A stretch of DNA of 46,811 nt, taken from the NCBI GenBank assembly GCA_020725425.1, contig DYFA01000037.1:1-46811 (forward strand), in the 5' to 3' direction. Source of the DNA: Aneurinibacillus sp. GTDB taxonomy: Bacteria; Bacillota; UBA5301; DYFA01. Positions within the stretch are counted from its first letter, which is position 1. Each line of letters opens with the position of its first letter. A program made the translations under genes and the position numbers. This document shows, in pieces, positions 12,994-39,056 of this stretch. Below the pieces are notes generated by a model. The model was not told the origin of the DNA. It was given only the letters and a program-made list of their open reading frames with translations, and made no database searches.

Positions 12994-13252
12994 TCAAGCC
13001 TCTCCTGAGCCTTACCACAGCTTCCGCCAGGGGAACTTCGGGAACACCAGCCTGAATCTCGGCTTCAGCTTCCAGGAGTTTACGATAGATTTCCAGCTTG
13101 GCCTGCTGGCGCTCGTAGTAGGCTACACTCATGAGTACTGTGTCATCTCGGCCATTCTTTGTGATGAAGATCGGCTGAGCTCCCTTGTGAACCAGTTCAG
13201 ACAGTTCCGCGTAGTTGTTACGGAGGTCTTTAGTAGAGCGGATAATTGGCAT
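12986..13252 (-). CDS. Phd/YefM-family antitoxin
   Basis: An 88-residue antitoxin. The N-terminus MPIIRSTKDLRNNYAELSEL is the Phd/YefM DNA-binding start. ITKNGRDDTVLMSVAYYE matches the family's core (x-x-NG-x-x-x-x-VLMS-x-x-Y). The charged C-terminal half would wrap the toxin. The ATG at 13252 has AGGAGG eight bases upstream. It is first in the operon, so the antitoxin is made before the toxin. A textbook promoter and repeated CTATTGT motifs precede it, fitting autorepression by the antitoxin or complex. Confidence 0.9.
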   Translation of the reverse strand: MPIIRSTKDLRNNYAELSELVHKGAQPIFITKNGRDDTVLMSVAYYERQQAKLEIYRKLLEAEAEIQAGVPEVPLAEAVVRLRRGLNG

Positions 13253-30130: not shown

Positions 30131-32491
30131 TCACCCGGCGGCCCCGCCGCCGAGCAAGAGGTCGCCGAGGAGCGCCTGCCCCAGGCTCAACCCGCCGTCA
30201 TTGGGCGGAACCTGGCGGTGGAGGAGCACCTCGAACCCCTCCCGGGTCAAAGCGTCATGCAACTGACTCACGAGATACCGGTTCTGGAACACCCCGCCGG
30301 AGAGCGCCACCTTCTGGAGCCCTGTCTCCCGGCGCAGGCACTCGAGGCCGGCCAGGATCATCTCCCGGACGGTATGGTGGAACCGGGCGGAGATCACCGC
30401 CGCAGCCGTGCCCCGGGACGCCTCCTCCACCACCGCCGGCCACAGGGGGGCAGGGTCGATCACCCAGCCGCCACCTTCCTCCCATACCGTAAAGGGATAC
30501 CGGTCATCCGGAAAGACCGCCGGGCGCTCCTTATGGAGCCGGGCCTCCAGCTCGATCGCCGGCTGCCCCTCGTAGTGACCCTCCCGGCAGACCCCCGCCA
30601 GGGCCGAGACCGCGTCGAAGAGCCGGCCGGCGCTCGAACACTGCGGAGAATTCAACCCCAACGGCAGCTGGAGGCGGAGGACTTCCCCTTCCTGGGCCGT
30701 CCAGGGCGCCACGCCGGCCTGTTCGGCCGCGGCCACCGCCTTCTCCCCGCCGGCGGTCCAGAGATAGGCGAAGGCCATCCGCGCCGGGTGATGGATCGCC
30801 GCCTCTCCGCCGGGCAGGGGGGTGTAGCGCAGGTGTCCACGCCGGGCGAAGTGCGGCGGAGCCCCGACAAAGAACTCAAACCCCCAGAGCTTCCCGTCCC
30901 GGCCGTATCCTGTGCCGTCGCAGACCACTCCGAGCACTGGTTCCTCCACTCCATGCTCAGCCAGACAGGAAGCGAGGTGAGCTTCGTGGTGCTGTACCCC
31001 GAGGAGCGGAAGCTTTCCTTCGTACCAGCGGTGCGCCAGCTTCGTCGAGCGGTACTCCGGATGGAGGTCATGGACCACCGCTTCCGGACTGATTTCAAAG
31101 TACCCGGCGAGCCGCCCCAGCGCCTCCTCGAGAAACGCCAGGGAGCGGAGGTCGCCCACCTCCCCGATGTGCTGGGAGAGGTAGAAGCGCTGCCCGGCAG
31201 TCAGGCAGAAGGTGTTCTTCTGGTCCCCGCCGATCGCGAGCACCGACCGGAGTGCCCGCCGGTACTCCAGGGGCTGAGGGGCGTACCCCCGGGACCGGCG
31301 CAAGAGAAGCGGCCCCCCGGCCACCGTCGCCACCACCGAGTCGTCGCACCGGTTATGGATGTCCCGGTTGTGGAAGAGGAAGGCGTCGGCGATCCCGGCA
31401 AGCTCCCGCGCCGCTTCGGCGTTGTCGATCACCAGGGGTGAATCGGAAAGGTTGCCGCTCGTCGCCACTAGGCAGTCCAGGCCCTCCTCGAACAAAAGCG
31501 CGTGCAACGGTGTGTAGACCAGCATGACGCCGAGCGTGTCCACGCCCGGCGCCACCGCCTCGGCCAGTGGCTGCTCCGGGTCGGGGCGCTTCGGCAAGAG
31601 GACGATCGGCCGCCGCCAGGACGCCAACAATTCCCGGGCCGCCTCGTCGACCAGGCCGTACCGTTCCACCGCGGCCAAGTCCGAACACATCAGGGCGAAG
31701 GGCTTCGCCTCCCGGTGCTTTCGCTGCCGCAGCGCCTCGACGGCCGCTGGCTGGTGGGCGTCGCAGACCAGGTGGAACCCGCCGATCCCCTTCACCGCCA
31801 GGATCTTCCCGGCCTTCAGCAACTCCCTCGCCCGGGCGAAAACCTTCGCCTGGTCAGCTGCCTCTTCTGGAAGCGGCTCCTTGAGGCCGGCCGGGTTCGC
31901 GATCTCGTCGGCCAGCCGGAGAAAGGCCTTGGGGCCGCAGACTGGGCAGGCATTCGGCTGGGCGTGGAACCGCCGGTCGCCCGGGTCCTCGTACTCGGCG
32001 GCGCACTCGGGGCACATCGCGAACCTGGCCATGGTCGTCCGCGGCCGGTCGTAGGGCAACGACCGGACGATGCTGAACCGCGGTCCGCAGTTGGTGCAGT
32101 TGATGAAAGGATACCCGTGCCGCCGGTCCCGGGGGTCCTGCTGCTCGGCGGCACACTCGGCGCAGAGCCCGATATCCGGGGCGATCAGCACCGAGGGCCG
32201 CTCACCGGCCTCGCTCTCCACGATGGTGAACTCCCGGTATCCGCGGAGTTCCTCCCAGTTCAGCTCGGAACGGATGATTCGGGCCAAGGGCGGGGCTTCT
32301 TCCGGCAGCGCGGCGTAAAAGCCGCGCACCACCTCCTCCTTGCCCTCGACCTCGATCACCACGCCGTGGACGTCGTTGTACACGATGCCCGGCAGCTGCC
32401 ACTTGCGGGCCAGGCGGTAGACAAAGGGGCGGAACCCTACCCCCTGAACGATTCCGCCCAGCCGGATGATGCCGCGCCGGCGTCCGTTCAC
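30131..32491 (-). CDS. hypF: Carbamoyltransferase HypF
   Basis: Converts carbamoyl phosphate and ATP to carbamoyl-adenylate and passes the carbamoyl group to HypE. Domains in order: acylphosphatase (GGIVQGVGFRPFVYRLA, about 12-28 onward); two zinc-finger-like pairs (LCAECAAE with INCTNCGPRFS, then MCPECAAEY with ACPVCGP); a YrdC-like adenylation domain (LAVKGIGGFHLVCDA, LVATSGNLSD); and a Kae1-like carbamoyltransferase domain (GVQHHEAHLASCLAEHG, VALSGGVFQNRYL). The GTG at 32491 overlaps the hypB stop (GTGA) and places the acylphosphatase domain at the N-terminus; the in-frame ATG at 32542 would overlap hypB by 55 nt. Length is 786 aa. Confidence 0.96.
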   Translation of the reverse strand: MNGRRRGIIRLGGIVQGVGFRPFVYRLARKWQLPGIVYNDVHGVVIEVEGKEEVVRGFYAALPEEAPPLARIIRSELNWEELRGYREFTIVESEAGERPSVLIAPDIGLCAECAAEQQDPRDRRHGYPFINCTNCGPRFSIVRSLPYDRPRTTMARFAMCPECAAEYEDPGDRRFHAQPNACPVCGPKAFLRLADEIANPAGLKEPLPEEAADQAKVFARARELLKAGKILAVKGIGGFHLVCDAHQPAAVEALRQRKHREAKPFALMCSDLAAVERYGLVDEAARELLASWRRPIVLLPKRPDPEQPLAEAVAPGVDTLGVMLVYTPLHALLFEEGLDCLVATSGNLSDSPLVIDNAEAARELAGIADAFLFHNRDIHNRCDDSVVATVAGGPLLLRRSRGYAPQPLEYRRALRSVLAIGGDQKNTFCLTAGQRFYLSQHIGEVGDLRSLAFLEEALGRLAGYFEISPEAVVHDLHPEYRSTKLAHRWYEGKLPLLGVQHHEAHLASCLAEHGVEEPVLGVVCDGTGYGRDGKLWGFEFFVGAPPHFARRGHLRYTPLPGGEAAIHHPARMAFAYLWTAGGEKAVAAAEQAGVAPWTAQEGEVLRLQLPLGLNSPQCSSAGRLFDAVSALAGVCREGHYEGQPAIELEARLHKERPAVFPDDRYPFTVWEEGGGWVIDPAPLWPAVVEEASRGTAAAVISARFHHTVREMILAGLECLRRETGLQKVALSGGVFQNRYLVSQLHDALTREGFEVLLHRQVPPNDGGLSLGQALLGDLLLGGGAAG

Positions 32492-33162
32492 CGGGTTATC
32501 CCCGCCGCCTTCTGCTTCCGCTGCACCTCGTCTACGAGCCATGCCACTACCGCGTCCATCCCCTGCCCGGTCGTGGCGACCGTCTCGAAGAGCCTTTGTT
32601 GCGGGTTCATCGCCACGAGCTCCCGCTTCACCCGCGCCAGGTCGAACCGGAAGTAGGGCAACAGGTCGATCTTGTTCAGGAGCACCGCCGCGGCCCGCCG
32701 GAAGGTAGCCGGGTACTTCGCCGGCTTGTCGTCGCCTTCCGGGATGGAGAGCACGACCATCTTGGCGTCCTCCCCGAGGTCAAAGTCGGCCGGGCAGACC
32801 AGGTTGCCCACGTTCTCGACCAGAAGCAGTTGGGTACCCTCCAGGTCCAGACTTTGCAGGGCCCGCTCGACCATCCGAGCGTCCAGGTGGCACCCGCCGA
32901 AGGTGTTGATCTGGTGCACCGGGATTCCGTACCGCGCCACCCGCTCGGCGTCAAGCGAGGTCGTGATGTCCCCCTCGATCACCGCCAGGCGCACTTTATC
33001 CTTGAGGAGGGCGCAGAGGCGTTCGACTACCGTGGTCTTGCCGGCGCCGGGCGAACTGATGAGGTTGATGGAGTAGACGCCCCGCCGGGCGAATTCCTCC
33101 CGGAGCCCCTGGGCGATGGCGGCGTTGGCGCCGAGCACGTTGGCCTGAAGGTTTATTTCCAC
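32488..33162 (-). CDS. hypB: Hydrogenase nickel-incorporation GTPase HypB
   Basis: GTPase that, with HypA, inserts nickel into the large-subunit precursor. P-loop NLISSPGAGKTT is near 33-44, then VIEGDITTSLDAERV, a metal-site TFGGCHLDA, VENVGNLVCPADFDLGE and the NKIDLLPY G4 motif. The GTG at 33162 is chosen for GGAGGAGG upstream and because it yields 224 residues starting VEINLQANVLGAN, the usual family start. The longer frame to 33252 has no support. It lacks the N-terminal histidine-rich nickel-storage region seen in some HypB proteins. Confidence 0.95.
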   Translation of the reverse strand: MEINLQANVLGANAAIAQGLREEFARRGVYSINLISSPGAGKTTVVERLCALLKDKVRLAVIEGDITTSLDAERVARYGIPVHQINTFGGCHLDARMVERALQSLDLEGTQLLLVENVGNLVCPADFDLGEDAKMVVLSIPEGDDKPAKYPATFRRAAAVLLNKIDLLPYFRFDLARVKRELVAMNPQQRLFETVATTGQGMDAVVAWLVDEVQRKQKAAGITR

Positions 33163-33191
33163 AGCCTTTTCCTCCTCCAAAGCCTGCCCCC

Positions 33192-33200
33192 ATTGTACCA
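33192..33200 (-). promoter_or_regulatory. Possible internal extended -10 promoter before hypB
   Basis: TGGTACAAT on the minus strand fits TGn plus a TACAAT -10. It lies 30 nt upstream of the hypB start, in the only gap of appreciable size (95 nt) within the hyp genes. No -35 is evident. Confidence 0.35.
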
Positions 33201-33257
33201 CAATGCCTTCTGCCCGCGCTAGCGCCCCCTTAGGCATGGGCCGGGAGCTCACCCCTG

Positions 33258-33599
33258 TTACTCAGCCAGCAGGTGTTCGATATACAGCTCGTTCCCGCCG
33301 GTCTGTTGCGTGTCTCCGGAGCCGCAGGCCGGGCAGAGGAAGGAGTAGTTCTCGACGGCGAACCGGTGGCCGCAGGCGCGGCACTCCGCCGTGACCGGGC
33401 GGGTCTCGATGACGAGCTTTGAGCCGGCGGCCGGCGTCTCCTGTGTGGCCACCTCCCAGCAGAACTCGAGCGCCTCTGGGACCACGTTGGAGAGCTCCCC
33501 CACCACCACCTTCACTTCAGTCGCCCTGGTCAGGCTCCGTTTCGCCAGCTCTGCCTGGACTATGTCCACGATGGAGGTGGCGATGGCCAGTTCATGCAC
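33258..33599 (-). CDS. hypA: Hydrogenase nickel metallochaperone HypA
   Basis: A 113-residue zinc protein that delivers nickel. The N-terminal MHE nickel motif is intact (GTG-CAT-GAA). The zinc site is two CxxC pairs (ECRACGH, LCPACGS). The start is a GTG at 33599 with AAGGAG eight bases upstream; the MHE requirement fixes it. It is the first hyp gene, separated from the structural genes by a terminator-like hairpin. Confidence 0.96.
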   Translation of the reverse strand: MHELAIATSIVDIVQAELAKRSLTRATEVKVVVGELSNVVPEALEFCWEVATQETPAAGSKLVIETRPVTAECRACGHRFAVENYSFLCPACGSGDTQQTGGNELYIEHLLAE

Positions 33600-33675: not shown

Positions 33676-34137
33676 TTAGAGTTCCGCCAGTATCAGCTCG
33701 ATCGCCTGGTCGATCTTCTCGGCCACCTCCGGGCTGAGCTCCAGCCCCACCTCGATGACCTTGGGCTCACACCCGATGACTACGACCTGCTCGGGCCGTT
33801 CACCCAGCTGCTCCAGCGCCTCGAGCACCTGGTAGAAGTCCACCTGGTGCAGGGAGTCCATCGGCATCCGCTTGACCCCGAGCTCCCGGGTGTCGAACCG
33901 GTAGAGGGCTCCCGGTGGCCCGCCGCCTTTGACGGTGTCCACCACGACTACCTTCTCCGCCTCGGCGATCGGGTTCATCAGGGCGAAGCCGGCGGTGCCT
34001 CCGTCGAGGAGGGTGACATCCGGGGGGAGGGGCACCCGGCGTTCTTCCATGGCTTGGATGACCCTCACCCCGAACCCTTCATCCTGCAAGAGGATGTTGC
34101 CGACTCCCAGCACCAACACCCGCCACTTCTTGGCCAT
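33676..34137 (-). CDS. Hydrogenase maturation endopeptidase (HyaD/HybD family)
   Basis: Clips the C-terminal tail of the large subunit after nickel insertion. The HybD-type nickel ligands are present: Glu20 (LLQDEGFG), Asp67 (VVDTVK) and His97 (DSLHQVDF). VLVLGVGNILLQDEG is the family start. Length is 153 aa. The ATG at 34137 directly follows the cytochrome b TAG (TAGATG). Its substrate should be the large subunit encoded two genes upstream. Confidence 0.95.
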   Translation of the reverse strand: MAKKWRVLVLGVGNILLQDEGFGVRVIQAMEERRVPLPPDVTLLDGGTAGFALMNPIAEAEKVVVVDTVKGGGPPGALYRFDTRELGVKRMPMDSLHQVDFYQVLEALEQLGERPEQVVVIGCEPKVIEVGLELSPEVAEKIDQAIELILAEL

Positions 34138-34725
34138 CTAGTCCTCGTACCCGGTGATGATGCCCTTGAACAGGTGCAACCCGTTGTAGAGCCCCAGGTA
34201 CACGTGGATCAGGGTGGTGATGGCAAAGAGCCAGGCACCCAGGAAGTGGAACGTGCGCAGCCACTGCATCCCACCGAGGAATTGGCGGGCCGATGGCAGG
34301 TAGAAGTATAACCCGAAGCCGGTGACCGCCTCGAAGATCAGCAGGAAGAGCCACATGGTGTAGGTCAACCGCTGTCCCGGGTTGAGGTGACCATCCTTCG
34401 GCTCGGTCTCCCTCAACCACAGGTAGTAAGCGAACAGCGGACCCAGGTCCTTGAAGTGGCGCCAGTAAAACCAGATCGTCTTGTAGTAGCCCGTCACGAT
34501 GGCGTGGTAGACCTTCGCGATCAAGTTGAAAACCACCACGTACATCGAGATGAAGTGGACGATCCGCGCCCCGTTCATCGCTCCCGGGAAGGCGAACGAT
34601 GCGGGATAGTGGATGTAGAACCCCGACCAGATCAGCAGCAGGATGCACGCAGCGTGGACCCAGTGCATGATCCGGATCGCCAGCGGCTGGTCCGGGGTCC
34701 GGACGGCGGCTTTCGCCGTTGCCAT
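34138..34725 (-). CDS. Ni/Fe-hydrogenase b-type cytochrome subunit
   Basis: Integral membrane dihaem cytochrome that accepts electrons from the small subunit and passes them to the quinone pool. Four hydrophobic helices are visible (about 20-37, 55-78, 120-142 and 155-180). Candidate haem histidines are in IRIMHWVHAAC, RIVHFISMY, VYHAIVTGYY and TLIHVYLGLYN. Length is 195 aa. The ATG at 34725 has a weak GGAGG about 12 nt upstream. It stands between the large-subunit and protease genes, the standard order. Confidence 0.93.
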   Translation of the reverse strand: MATAKAAVRTPDQPLAIRIMHWVHAACILLLIWSGFYIHYPASFAFPGAMNGARIVHFISMYVVVFNLIAKVYHAIVTGYYKTIWFYWRHFKDLGPLFAYYLWLRETEPKDGHLNPGQRLTYTMWLFLLIFEAVTGFGLYFYLPSARQFLGGMQWLRTFHFLGAWLFAITTLIHVYLGLYNGLHLFKGIITGYED

Positions 34726-34755: not shown

Positions 34756-36291
34756 CTAGACTACTCTGAACGCGGCAGCCTTTTCAGGGTTCTCCAGATC
34801 AACCACGTGGACTGCGCAGGCGATGCACGGGTCGAAGGAGCGCACCACCCGGCAGATCTCTACCGGCTGGGTCGGATCCTTCACCGGCGTGCCCACCAGG
34901 GCCTCCTCCATCGGGCCCCGCACACCGTTGGCGTCACGCGGCCCGCCGTTCCAGGTGGTCGGCACGACCTGCTGGTAGTTCTTGATTCGGCCGCCCTCGA
35001 TCACGATGTGATGCGAGAGCGCTCCCCGAGGAGCTTCGGCGAAGCCGTGACCTTCGCCCGAGTGCGGGTTGTAGGCGGTGAAGGTCGGCCCGTCGAGTTT
35101 CAACTCGGTCACCCAGCCCAGCATGGCGTCGGCGACCACCTTGGCTTCGAGCGCCCGGGCGGCGATCCGCGCCAGGACGGACGGCCCGATGTTGAGCTTC
35201 TGCGCCAGGTTGAGGAGACCGGCATCCTGCTTGACGAGCATCCGGGCGAGCGGGCCGACTTCCATCGGCTTGCCGTCGTAGCGCGGCGCTTTGAGCCAGG
35301 AGTACTTCTCGCCGTCCTTGGCGTGCTCGCCGAAGCTCTTGTACTCGGGTTCGGTCTCGCCATGCAGCGGCTGCTTGGCCTCGGCGCCCTTGTACCAGGA
35401 GTGCGCCACGTGCTCCGCCACCTTTTCGATGTCGGCCTCGACCACGTTGGCGATGTCGCCGCCGAAGATAGCACCCCGCGGCAGGAGCTGCTTTTTCGGA
35501 TCCATAGAAGCATCCGGGAAGTCGCCCCAGGCCAGGAAGTTGCCGCAGCCGACGCCGATCTTCCCGTAGTCGAGGTAGTAAGGCGCCACCGCCAGGACCA
35601 GCGGGATGTGCTTGTTGTCGATGAAATCTTGGGCCTCCTTGATGTAGCCCACGAGCTGCGAAATGATCGTCGGGGTCAGCTTCACGGTCACGCCGCCCGG
35701 GACCATCGACATGGCATGCGGGAACTTGCCGCCCAGGAGCGCCAGGGCCTCGTTGGCCCGGCGGTAGACCTGGAGCGCTTCGACGTACTGCGCCACGGCT
35801 TCGATGTTGGCCTCCACCGGGAGCCGGTAGTCGACGTTGTACCGCGGGGTGAACGGCGCCGTGTCGCCGGCAGCGATCAACGACTTGATCTCGTTGAGCC
35901 GGGAGTCGTTCCCCTTGTACTGGGCCACGGCGGTGACGTCGACGTAGTCGAGCGCCACCAGGTGATAGAAGTGCAGCAGGTGGGAGTTGATGTACTGGAA
36001 GCCCTCGATGAGGTTCCGCACCAAGCGGGCGTTGTCCGTGAGCTTAAGCTTGTAGGCGTCCTCGATCGAGCGCGAGGAGGCCATGCCGTGTGGGATCGGG
36101 CAGACGCCGCAGGAGCGCTGGGTCACGAGCCAGGCGTCCTCCGCCTTCCGGCTCCGCAGGATCAGCTCCAGGCCCCGAAAGAGGGTGCCGGAGGTCCAGG
36201 CGTCCTTGACCTTGCCGTTTTCCACCTCGACCTCGACGCGGAGGTGGCCCTCAATTCTGGTCAGCGGATCGACGGTAATGAATTGAGACAT
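34756..36291 (-). CDS. [NiFe] hydrogenase large subunit
   Basis: Catalytic subunit holding the NiFe(CN)2CO site. L1 motif RSCGVCPIPH (Cys61, Cys64) and L2 motif DPCIACAVH near the C-terminus (Cys489, Cys492) supply the four nickel-binding cysteines; no selenocysteine or replaced Cys is present. A 16-residue tail after His495 (VVDLENPEKAAAFRVV) is the expected substrate of the maturation protease. Length is 511 aa. It begins MSQFITVDPLTRIEGHL. The sequence type fits the membrane-bound, H2-uptake group 1 enzymes (inference from subunits and motifs). The ATG at 36291 lies 17 nt after the small-subunit stop. Confidence 0.97.
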   Translation of the reverse strand: MSQFITVDPLTRIEGHLRVEVEVENGKVKDAWTSGTLFRGLELILRSRKAEDAWLVTQRSCGVCPIPHGMASSRSIEDAYKLKLTDNARLVRNLIEGFQYINSHLLHFYHLVALDYVDVTAVAQYKGNDSRLNEIKSLIAAGDTAPFTPRYNVDYRLPVEANIEAVAQYVEALQVYRRANEALALLGGKFPHAMSMVPGGVTVKLTPTIISQLVGYIKEAQDFIDNKHIPLVLAVAPYYLDYGKIGVGCGNFLAWGDFPDASMDPKKQLLPRGAIFGGDIANVVEADIEKVAEHVAHSWYKGAEAKQPLHGETEPEYKSFGEHAKDGEKYSWLKAPRYDGKPMEVGPLARMLVKQDAGLLNLAQKLNIGPSVLARIAARALEAKVVADAMLGWVTELKLDGPTFTAYNPHSGEGHGFAEAPRGALSHHIVIEGGRIKNYQQVVPTTWNGGPRDANGVRGPMEEALVGTPVKDPTQPVEICRVVRSFDPCIACAVHVVDLENPEKAAAFRVV

Positions 36292-36308: not shown

Positions 36309-37397
36309 TTACGCCTCGGTCTTGGCCGACGGCTTGTGCTCGGAGGCTTCCTTGCCTTTGCCGAACCGCCCGAAGGAGGCACCCAACACCGCATGGCCCA
36401 GGATGCCTACCACTGTGGCCGCGCCGACCACCGCACCGATCGTGTCGGCGCTGGCGCGCACCGAGCCGAGTTTCACGTCAGGCAGCCGGTCGTAGAACGG
36501 CATAAAGCGATCGGGCCAGCCGGGCTCGGTGCAGCCGATGCAGCCGGCGCCAGCCTGGATGCACCAGGCCTTGCCGGAGTTCCATCGCACCTGCGGGCAG
36601 TTGGAGAAGACGTTCGGCCCCTTGCAGCCTACCTTCACCAGGCAGTAGTCCCGGGTCTCCTCCTTCTGGCCGAAGACCTCGACGTACTTGCCCTCGTCGA
36701 ACGACGCCCGGCGCGGGCAGTTGTCGTGGAGGCACTGACCGTAGATCGCCACCGGCCGCAGGTCCTTGTCGAGCTTGGGTACCGCGCCGGTGAGCAGAAC
36801 CTGGACGACGGTGGCCAGCAGCCAATTCGGGTTCACCGGGCATCCCGGCAGGTTGATGACCTTCTCCGGCCCGATGAGCTCGGAGACCGGCTTCACGCCG
36901 CCTGGATTCGGGCTGGCGCCGGGAATTCCGCCGTACGCGGAGCAGGAGCCGACCGCCAGGACCGCCGCGGCGCCCGCCGCCGCTTCCTTGAGCCAGTCGA
37001 CCATCTGCTTGCCGCCGAACATCCCGTAGCCTTCCTTGGTGGGAACGACGCCTTCAACAACGAGGAAATACTTGCCGGCCTCAGTCTTGATCGTTTCTTC
37101 CAAAGTCTTGTCAGCCAGCTCGCCCTGGGCCGCCATGATCGCCTCATGATACCGGATAGACAGGCGGTTCAGAACCACATCCACAGCGGTCGGAGAATCG
37201 GCATTCAAAAAGGAGCAACTGCAGCCGGTGCAGGATCCCATCTCCAGCCAGACCAGGGGCGGCTTCTTGGCGCTCTCCGCGAGGACCTGGGCCACCTGTG
37301 GAACTGAGAGCTCGGAGAGGCCGAGGGCCGCCGCGACGCCGCCGCAAAGCTTCAGGAAGTCCCGGCGGCTGATTTCGTGGAACAGTTCACGACTCAC
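36309..37397 (-). CDS. [NiFe] hydrogenase small subunit, Tat-exported and membrane-anchored
   Basis: Electron-transfer subunit. The twin-arginine signal SRRDFLKLCG (10-19) shows export of the folded heterodimer. The proximal cluster starts with SCTGCSCSF (Cys56, Cys59). Later cysteines lie in VGSCSAYGG, LPGCPVNP, HDNCPRR, VKVGCKGPN, NCPQVRWN and WCIQAGAGCIGC. The Cys in WCIQAG, at the position that is Pro in [3Fe-4S] enzymes, suggests an all-[4Fe-4S] chain. The extra proximal cysteines of O2-tolerant enzymes are absent (CTGC and AYGG). A C-terminal membrane helix (about 320-345) ends in a Lys-rich tail. The GTG at 37397 has AAAGGAG ten bases upstream. It is the first gene of the hydrogenase-hyp operon. 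Confidence 0.97.
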   Translation of the reverse strand: MSRELFHEISRRDFLKLCGGVAAALGLSELSVPQVAQVLAESAKKPPLVWLEMGSCTGCSCSFLNADSPTAVDVVLNRLSIRYHEAIMAAQGELADKTLEETIKTEAGKYFLVVEGVVPTKEGYGMFGGKQMVDWLKEAAAGAAAVLAVGSCSAYGGIPGASPNPGGVKPVSELIGPEKVINLPGCPVNPNWLLATVVQVLLTGAVPKLDKDLRPVAIYGQCLHDNCPRRASFDEGKYVEVFGQKEETRDYCLVKVGCKGPNVFSNCPQVRWNSGKAWCIQAGAGCIGCTEPGWPDRFMPFYDRLPDVKLGSVRASADTIGAVVGAATVVGILGHAVLGASFGRFGKGKEASEHKPSAKTEA

Positions 37398-37572
37398 TAC
37401 TTCCCAACTCCTTTCGTTGAGGCTCGCTCAGCTAGTGACGTCTGAGAGGTTCCATCCCCTTCGCTCTTCACCCCGGCCCCCTCACACCTCCATTTCTGCA
37501 CCGCGCTAAAGTCGCTTGGATAGCCCAATGTACTTGTAATTCCACGTCTCCTTCTACATCCCTCCTCAAGAA

Positions 37573-37590
37573 ATGTGAATTGTTTCACAA
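37573..37590. promoter_or_regulatory. Rex-type operator (NADH/NAD+ redox repressor)
   Basis: ATGTGAATTGTTTCACAA differs from the Firmicutes Rex consensus TTGTGAAnnnnTTCACAA only at the first base, and the TGTGAA/TTCACA arms are perfectly symmetric. It lies 176 nt upstream of the hydrogenase small-subunit start and overlaps the best -10 candidate for that operon. Regulation by Rex is inferred; no rex gene is in the window. Confidence 0.65.
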
Positions 37591-37612
37591 AGGATCAGCC
37601 CGGCCAAACTTT

Positions 37613-37629
37613 TGTTAATTTTGTTGACA
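37613..37629 (+). promoter_or_regulatory. GlnR/TnrA-like nitrogen regulator box
   Basis: TGTTA-ATTTTGT-TGACA fits the TGTnA-n7-TnACA consensus exactly. It lies 16 nt upstream of the glnA -35 box, where nitrogen regulators bind in Bacillus. The motif is short, so a chance match is possible in this AT-rich patch. Confidence 0.5.
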
Positions 37630-37644
37630 AGAATGGTAAAACTG

Positions 37645-37673
37645 TTGACACGGGGTTGACAAGGGGGTAGACT
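37645..37673 (+). promoter_or_regulatory. glnA promoter
   Basis: TTGACA (37645-37650), a 17-nt spacer and TAGACT (37668-37673) form a near-consensus housekeeping promoter. It would start transcription about 54 nt before the glnA ATG. Two further TTGACA copies flank the -35 at 37624 and 37656. Confidence 0.75.
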
Positions 37674-37733: not shown

Positions 37734-39056
37734 ATGGGCTACACCGCGGAGGAGATCCTTAAGCTCGCCCACGACGCCAGAGTTTCCATCATCCGCCTTC
37801 AGTTCGTCGATATCCTGGGCGTCATCAAGAACGTGGCAATCCCCCTTTCGCAACTCGAAAAGGCCCTCGAGGGGAAGATCGCCTTCGACGGCTCGTCGAT
37901 CGAGGGTTTCACCCGCATCGAGGAGTCCGACATGCTCCTCAAGCCCGACCTGAATTCCTTCATTCTGCTGCCGTGGTACGACACGCCCATCGCCCGCATG
38001 ATCTGCGACGTATATTTGCCGGACGGACAGCCCTTCTCAGGGGATCCCCGGTACGTGCTGAAGCGGGTTCTGTCGGAGGCGGCGGAGCTCGGGTACACGA
38101 TGAACACCGGCCCGGAGATCGAATTCTTCCTCTTTAAGATCGGGGAGGACGGCGTCCCGACCACGGTCACGCACGACGAGGGGTCCTACTTCGATCTCGC
38201 CCCCGTCGACAAGGGTGAGGAGGCCCGGCGCGACATCGTGCTGTATCTGGAGAAGCTCGGGTTCGAGGTCGAAGCCGCCCACCACGAGGTGGCCTCAGCC
38301 CAGCATGAGATCGACTTCAAGTACGCCGACGCCCTGACCACCGCGGACCGGGTGGCCACCTTCAAGGTCGTGACCCGGACGGTCGCCCAGCGGCACGGGC
38401 TTCACGCCACGTTCATGCCGAAGCCGATCTTCGGCATCAACGGCTCCGGCATGCACACCAACCTCTCCCTCTTCCGGGACGGGAAGAACGCCTTCTTCGA
38501 TCCGGAGGGGCCGTACCAACTCTCCCAGGAAGCCTTCTACTTCATCGGAGGCCTGCTGAAGCACGTCCGGTCTTTCACTGCCGTGACCAATCCCCTGGTC
38601 AACTCGTACAAACGGCTGGTCCCGGGCTACGAAGCCCCGGTCTACATCGCCTGGTCGGCCATGAACCGGACTGCTCTGATCCGGGTGCCGGCGGCCCGCG
38701 GCATGTCGACCCGCCTTGAGCTCCGGAGCCCCGACCCGTCGTGCAACCCGTACCTGGCTTTCGCCGTGATTCTGAAAGCGGGCCTCGACGGCATCCAAAA
38801 CAAGATCACCCCGCCGGAGTCGTTCGCCAAGAACATCTACCACATGACCGACGAGGAACGGGTGGCCGAAGGCATCCTGAGCTTGCCGGGGAGTCTCAAG
38901 GAAGCCCTGGATGAGATGGCGCGCAACCCGCTTCTGCGGGAGGCGCTCGGCGACCACGTGTACGAGCACTTCATGGAAGCCAAGCGCATTGAGTGGGACG
39001 TCTACCGCACCCAGGTTCACCAGTGGGAACTCGACCAGTACCTGAGAACGTTCTGA
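37734..39056 (+). CDS. glnA: Glutamine synthetase type I
   Basis: ATP-dependent synthesis of glutamine from glutamate and ammonia. Signature blocks: [17 protein letters not shown], the metal-site GPEIEFFLF, the ammonia/ATP region [45 protein letters not shown] and [17 protein letters not shown]. The 440-residue length and lack of an adenylylation-loop insertion fit the GSI-alpha type of Firmicutes, which is feedback-inhibited. The ATG at 37734 has GGGAGGAGGAG upstream; the in-frame ATG at 37674 lies at the -10 and is rejected. It is monocistronic and on the plus strand. It can recapture ammonia released by methylaspartate ammonia-lyase (inference). Confidence 0.97.

Follow-up and report, generated by a model that had tools for sequence, protein, structure and literature searches.

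Rex is a well-known sensor of the cellular NADH level, and genes of the Ndh and ATPase types belong to its accepted target classes. In the accessible text of PMC6391272, which cites Ravcheev 2012, TTGTGAAN4TTCACAA is given as the Rex consensus of Bacillota, Rex sites with gel-shift support are placed before the Ech [NiFe] and [FeFe] hydrogenase operons of Caldicellulosiruptor bescii, and Rex control of hydrogenases is termed taxon-specific. For Calderihabitans maritimus, the available part of PMC7306483 predicts TTGTGA-N6-TCACAA sites ahead of several targets, namely a group 3b [NiFe] hydrogenase, cooS2-ech1, kor, fdh, nap and multihaem cytochromes; the group 1a hydrogenase of this organism, which has cytochrome b, was downregulated under CO, and no motif was found in the downregulated units. 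Rex control of Ni-CODH/ECH was predicted in the accessible portion of PMC13077300. A near-identical consensus, TTGTGA-N6-TCACAA, is described for HcpR/CRP sites, whose regulator is of the CRP/FNR family (excerpts of PMC545781 and PMC1274295). No earlier report linking Rex to a group 1 uptake hydrogenase was found in a search that missed most subscription literature, and absence from print is not claimed.

The window, i.e. the whole analysed stretch of 46,811 nucleotides, belongs to a 2.38-Mb draft genome (G000), judged from its relatives to be of Bacillota. At 37573-37590 it carries ATGTGAATTGTTTCACAA, which resembles Bacillota Rex operators in sequence (13 of the 14 specified positions of TTGTGAAN4TTCACAA), in the presence of Rex in the genome, and in the ATPase and NADH-dehydrogenase neighbours within the set of sites. 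It differs from them in its outer T1, which is A, in a region common with glnA, and in its predicted target, a Tat-exported, group-1-type uptake [NiFe] hydrogenase. Whereas C. bescii Rex targets Ech and [FeFe] enzymes according to the available text, the enzyme here is a periplasmic uptake hydrogenase with cytochrome b. The palindrome is probably the operator of the genome's single Rex, which would repress the hydrogenase operon when NADH/NAD+ is low.

A probable operator palindrome and the hydrogenase operon

The initial annotation had described a near-perfect palindrome with a match at 17 of 18 positions. The palindrome is present as described, with T1 -> A as its single mismatch to TTGTGAANNNNTTCACAA; the count had included the four free spacer positions and is corrected to the figure given above. 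Its rarity was confirmed: none of 20,000 dinucleotide-shuffled versions of the 336-bp intergenic region contained a Rex match with at most one mismatch, and it is the window's only one-mismatch match. With up to three mismatches allowed, three places were found in the window, where shuffles averaged 0.36. Genome-wide, three matches with at most one mismatch were found (0.03 expected from base composition), and the other two both precede bioenergetic genes. Looser matches are only partly real, since up to three mismatches gave 29 places for the Rex pattern and 11 for the reversed pattern; eight of the ten places with at most two mismatches lay outside genes, gene boundaries being taken from hand reading or the longest ORF. 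A two-mismatch Rex-like match at 13185-13202, which by eye seems to fall within a small, antitoxin-like minus-strand gene, is probably due to chance.

Other patterns fitted the operator less well than TTGTGAA: FNR left four mismatches, clostridial Rex (TTGTTAA) three and CooA two, and neither HcpR1 nor HcpR2 fitted as well. A GlnR box was rejected as the identity of 37573-37590, as the operator has N6 spacing against the N7 of the GlnR/TnrA box consensus TGTNAN7TNACA, and the GlnR/TnrA-like boxes at 37613 and 37634 are distinct elements.

The operator sits between two divergent genes, the hydrogenase small subunit (leftward) and glnA (rightward). The small subunit starts at a GTG (first base 37397), 175 nt from the operator, with AAAGGAG ahead of it. 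The likely glnA start, ATG 37734, lies 143 nt from the operator and was chosen over the ORF-list start 37674 on account of the preceding GGGAGGAGGAG. The initial annotation had placed the site upstream of the hydrogenase operon and overlooked the divergence; the site is not upstream of the hydrogenase alone, since the region is common to glnA. The features of the locus are as follows.

30131-32542, minus strand: HypF (TIGR00143, 757.5 bits; cut-off 466.1)
32488-33252, minus strand: HypB (TIGR00073, 252.3 bits; cut-off 121.2)
33258-33599, minus strand: HypA (TIGR00100, 90.3 bits; cut-off 88.1)
33676-34137, minus strand: hydrogenase maturation protease (TIGR00072, 150.6 bits; cut-off 47.45)
34138-34725, minus strand: hydrogenase cytochrome b subunit (PF01292, 90 bits; cut-off 30.1)
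34756-36291, minus strand: [NiFe] hydrogenase large subunit (NF033181, 635.4 bits; cut-off 600)
36309-37397, minus strand: [NiFe] hydrogenase small subunit (TIGR00391, 336.7 bits; cut-off 179.5)
37573-37590, no strand: Rex-type operator ATGTGAATTGTTTCACAA, also a perfect TGTGA-N6-TCACA (pattern searches, shuffles)
37579-37607, minus strand: third-ranked hydrogenase promoter candidate TTGGCC-17-AACAAT with TGn, -10 at 37584-37579, in the operator
37613-37629, no strand: GlnR/TnrA-type box TGTTAATTTTGTTGACA, the window's only exact TGTNAN7TNACA
37633-37662, minus strand: best-scoring hydrogenase promoter candidate TTGTCA-18-TACCAT (promoter scoring)
37634-37650, no strand: second GlnR/TnrA-like box TGGTAAAACTGTTGACA, one mismatch, 21 bp from the first box
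37645-37673, plus strand: glnA promoter candidate TTGACA-17-TAGACT (promoter scoring)
37734-39056, plus strand: glnA (TIGR00653, 591.3 bits; cut-off 429.15)

The small subunit through HypF form a leftward operon-like series of seven genes. The small subunit carries a Tat signal (TIGR01409, 23.4 bits; cut-off 16.7) and a hydrophobic C-terminus (by eye), the closest solved structures to the large subunit are periplasmic [NiFe] hydrogenases, and the cytochrome b subunit reached 107.7 bits against TIGR02125, under the cut-off of 121.5. Given the Tat signal and these nearest structures, the earlier label of a membrane-bound uptake hydrogenase is fair for this Tat-exported [NiFe] enzyme with a cytochrome b subunit, putatively of group-1 type.

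The best-scoring hydrogenase promoter candidate does not overlap the operator, which would lie about 45 nt downstream of its start; the second-ranked minus-strand candidate overlaps it with its -35 at 37579-37574. An overlap with the best -10 candidate had been proposed: the operator does overlap a -10, but that of the promoter candidate ranking third. At low NADH/NAD+, Rex bound to 37573-37590 would repress the leftward [NiFe] hydrogenase-cytochrome b-Hyp operon in one of two ways: it could occupy the -10/-35 of a promoter at 37551-37607, or form a roadblock downstream of the stronger candidate at 37662-37633. Upon a rise of NADH, Rex would be released and the hydrogenase made together with the products of Ndh-like dehydrogenase and ATPase genes bearing sites of the same type. 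Rex binding, the promoter used and the sign of regulation are predicted from the sequence, as is the tuning of H2 oxidation by NADH/NAD+. A derepressed uptake hydrogenase when NADH is already high is awkward physiology.

Rex, its candidate sister sites and a CRP-type regulator

A search of the genome for rex, on which the Rex reading depended, returned one clear Rex (PF06971, 65 bits; NF003995, 236.5 bits, cut-off 126), with the helix AAQVRKDLTY compared to AFQVRKDLSY in solved Rex chains and the nucleotide-binding loop VGVGRLGTA retained. The scan for further sites likewise found same-type sites ahead of other bioenergetic genes. TTGTGAAGGTTATCACAA (one mismatch) lies 52 nt before an Ndh-like pyridine-nucleotide oxidoreductase gene, named so by general resemblance, since its Pyr_redox_2 protein matched no NADH-dehydrogenase NCBIfam model and its best model, TIGR03169, stayed sub-cut-off. 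TTGTGAAGGCGTTCACGA (one mismatch) lies 20 nt before tandem ATP-synthase delta/OSCP-like genes, and a V-type-ATPase-like operon (G000:C18:13038; L006 1-1518) begins 42 nt after TCGTGAAGTGCTTCACGA, a perfect palindrome with two mismatches to the Rex consensus. This operon has a subunit H/G-like gene followed by an I-like gene; its assignment is based on a PF16999 match of 30 bits (cut-off 28) together with a subunit I match that reached 70.1 bits, under its cut-off. No site with up to three mismatches was found near the genome's own rex, and none with up to four in the stretches examined upstream of its other two hydrogenases.

The delta/OSCP tandem (PF00213, C-terminal domain only; G000:C52:120311 on, L004 1501-2411) is free-standing; a tRNA-like stretch follows it, and no other atp genes were seen after it. 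Two further Rex/CRP-like palindromes, 128 bp apart (G000:C50:37537 and 37665; L010, L011), were located before or at the start of a protein of 263-314 aa without a Pfam match.

The perfect CRP-type TGTGA-N6-TCACA in the same bases had been left unconsidered in the Rex-only reading of the initial annotation. As this core is common to both, the bases alone cannot decide between Rex and CRP; the confusion is a real one, since the HcpR consensus in Desulfovibrio is TTGTGA-N6-TCACAA (accessible text of PMC545781). The genome encodes CRP/FNR proteins (two PF00325 matches; three PF13545 matches over cut-off), and the site might serve the CRP-type regulator G000:C64:10897 or another of this family, which, with cyclic nucleotide, would activate glnA from about -98 (operator centre 37581.5, approximately 98 bp from the predicted glnA start) or act on the hydrogenase. 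The C64 protein has an RSA motif, presumably of the cyclic-nucleotide type. Its R-E-R recognition helix, RETSSRIL, presents Arg and Glu at positions tied to G3 and A6 in the available part of PMC1274295.

Assignment of the site to a CRP-type protein, the serious rival to Rex, is nevertheless unlikely. At the V-ATPase and delta-like sites TGTGA is broken (TCGTGA), with TGTGAA/TTCACA-like inner bases of the Rex type retained. Of the genome's five exact TGTGA-N6-TCACA places, two read TGTGAC-N4-GTCACA, which hints at a preference of the C64 protein for C7/G12. Among the relatives, G004 (a single draft, 86% complete) has a CRP type with the helix RETVTRVL, no Rex match and no sites, whereas G006 (a single draft, 81% complete) has Rex and sites, and only CRP/FNR helices without Arg180. 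Rex is favoured over CRP on account of the Ndh-like, delta-like and V-ATPase-like targets, the ATPase-type sites that break the CRP core, and the G004/G006 pattern.

One of the two TGTGAC-N4-GTCACA places, TGTGACTCTGGTCACA at G000:C64:11107, lies 51 nt beyond the stop codon of the CRP-like gene and is a candidate for that regulator's own site. HcpR was rejected as a first choice, the hcp-linked CRP/FNR protein (C55) having the helix PETLSRRM without Arg180; pattern searches found no exact or near site at its locus, unlike in HcpR systems as far as the accessible sources describe them.

The divergent glnA

The glnA promoter candidate had the top score of all in the intergenic region, and both GlnR/TnrA-like boxes lie between the operator and glnA. 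Two MerR proteins in the genome had TnrA as best NCBIfam model, sub-cut-off (58.9 and 58.3 vs 140), and the gene of one lies near a second glutamine synthetase gene. The GlnR/TnrA assignment is tentative: of 80 regions upstream of glnA in named genomes, only two contained exact boxes. Control of glnA is probably mainly by nitrogen, through its own promoter and the GlnR/TnrA-like boxes.

It is distinctly improbable that Rex binds here with glnA, or both genes, as the meaningful target, tying NADH to nitrogen assimilation. Such a role would agree with an operator between divergent starts, 143 nt from glnA, with the citation of GS/GOGAT as a redox buffer in the available part of PMC7306483, and with the surroundings of rex: 143-218 nt behind it, in the same orientation, lies a class-II glutamine amidotransferase gene (GATase_2), and further on a GXGXG glutamate-synthase domain. 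However, a repressor would be unusually placed at the operator, some 55 bp upstream of the glnA -35; the tandem boxes are nearer the glnA promoter, with two TnrA-like (sub-cut-off) MerR proteins at hand; and the 80 glnA upstream regions contained the site in no case at up to two mismatches and in six at three. The genes after rex appear to be pieces of a split glutamate synthase (G000:C25; L187 7719-11970). A broader proposal is improbable: that a single Rex operator places both H2 uptake and glutamine synthetase under NADH/NAD+ control, and that Rex, encoded next to a split glutamate synthase, weighs electrons from hydrogen against nitrogen assimilation, the latter serving as electron sink in this uncultured lineage of Bacillota.

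Relatives and the hydrogenase as a probable Rex target

The comparison set comprised six relatives, class level at closest among those returned; a hydrogenase-based search for named relatives found none. Upstream of the orthologous hydrogenase, no site was found in G001, G003 or G005 (500-600 bp searched), even though glnA is likewise divergent in G003; the G006 orthologue had only 105 bp upstream. The lack of a site in these three suggests that Rex use at this hydrogenase is lineage-specific. It does not exclude a Rex operator, since hydrogenase control is taxon-specific according to the accessible text of PMC6391272.

Rex-type sites preceded free-standing tandem delta-like genes in G005 (one mismatch; G005:C30:52654) and G006 (two mismatches; G006:C91:12023). 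Paired sites occurred in G003 ahead of a second cytochrome-b hydrogenase, and in G001 ahead of a sulfhydrogenase-beta-like gene (sub-cut-off match). A pair on G001 C112 lies in a multihaem cytochrome cluster, past the 3' end of a NapC-type gene and ahead of two ORFs, one small and one with seven CxxCH motifs. G002 had a site 63 nt before a rex and a single one before a carbon-monoxide-dehydrogenase-like gene (by eye). The neighbours of sites in G001 and G002 resemble the C. maritimus set as given in the available part of PMC7306483. In G003, G005 and G006, rex and ndh are at most about 5 kb apart, and the ndh promoters had three to five mismatches at best. Sites with up to two mismatches were strongly enriched over the reversed pattern in G001 (20 v 4) and G002 (7 v 1), and weakly in G003 (9 v 5), G005 (6 v 4) and G006 (7 v 3). 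G004, the one of the six relatives without a Rex match, was also the sole one without a site at up to two mismatches; its lack of rex is not certain, as the genome is 86% complete.

TGTGA-N6-TCACA was further seen near the starts of three carbon-monoxide-dehydrogenase-like genes (by eye; G001:C50:7685, G001:C58:6997 and G002:C45:22706). These palindromes could belong to Rex or to a CRP/CooA-type regulator.

Across 48 hydrogenase upstream regions, up to two mismatches occurred once, at the window's own site. Of 60 further regions, which are part of the locus-less hydrogenase matches among the matches listed, two had up to two mismatches and none had one (mean 0.2, maximum 2 for 40 permuted palindromes). 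A chance palindrome without function, to which the site's absence from orthologous hydrogenases and its low frequency in these regions (1/48 and 2/60, among the matches listed) would be congenial, is very improbable against 0 of 20,000 shuffles and three genome places where 0.03 are expected, the other two before bioenergetic genes. From the sequences compared, Rex seems to have captured hydrogenases more than once, in a lineage-specific manner and with different hydrogenases involved.

The mechanism is ordinary and the target moderately interesting, a familiar switch on an enzyme type for which no earlier report was found. Expression of an uptake hydrogenase at high NADH would pose a puzzle; the enzyme might recycle hydrogen or run in reverse, or quinone-linked electron input might be controlled jointly. 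If Rex does act at this operator, its reach would extend beyond H2-evolving or bidirectional hydrogenases to a respiratory, H2-consuming [NiFe] enzyme, and H2 oxidation in an uncultured Bacillota class would be predictable from redox state.
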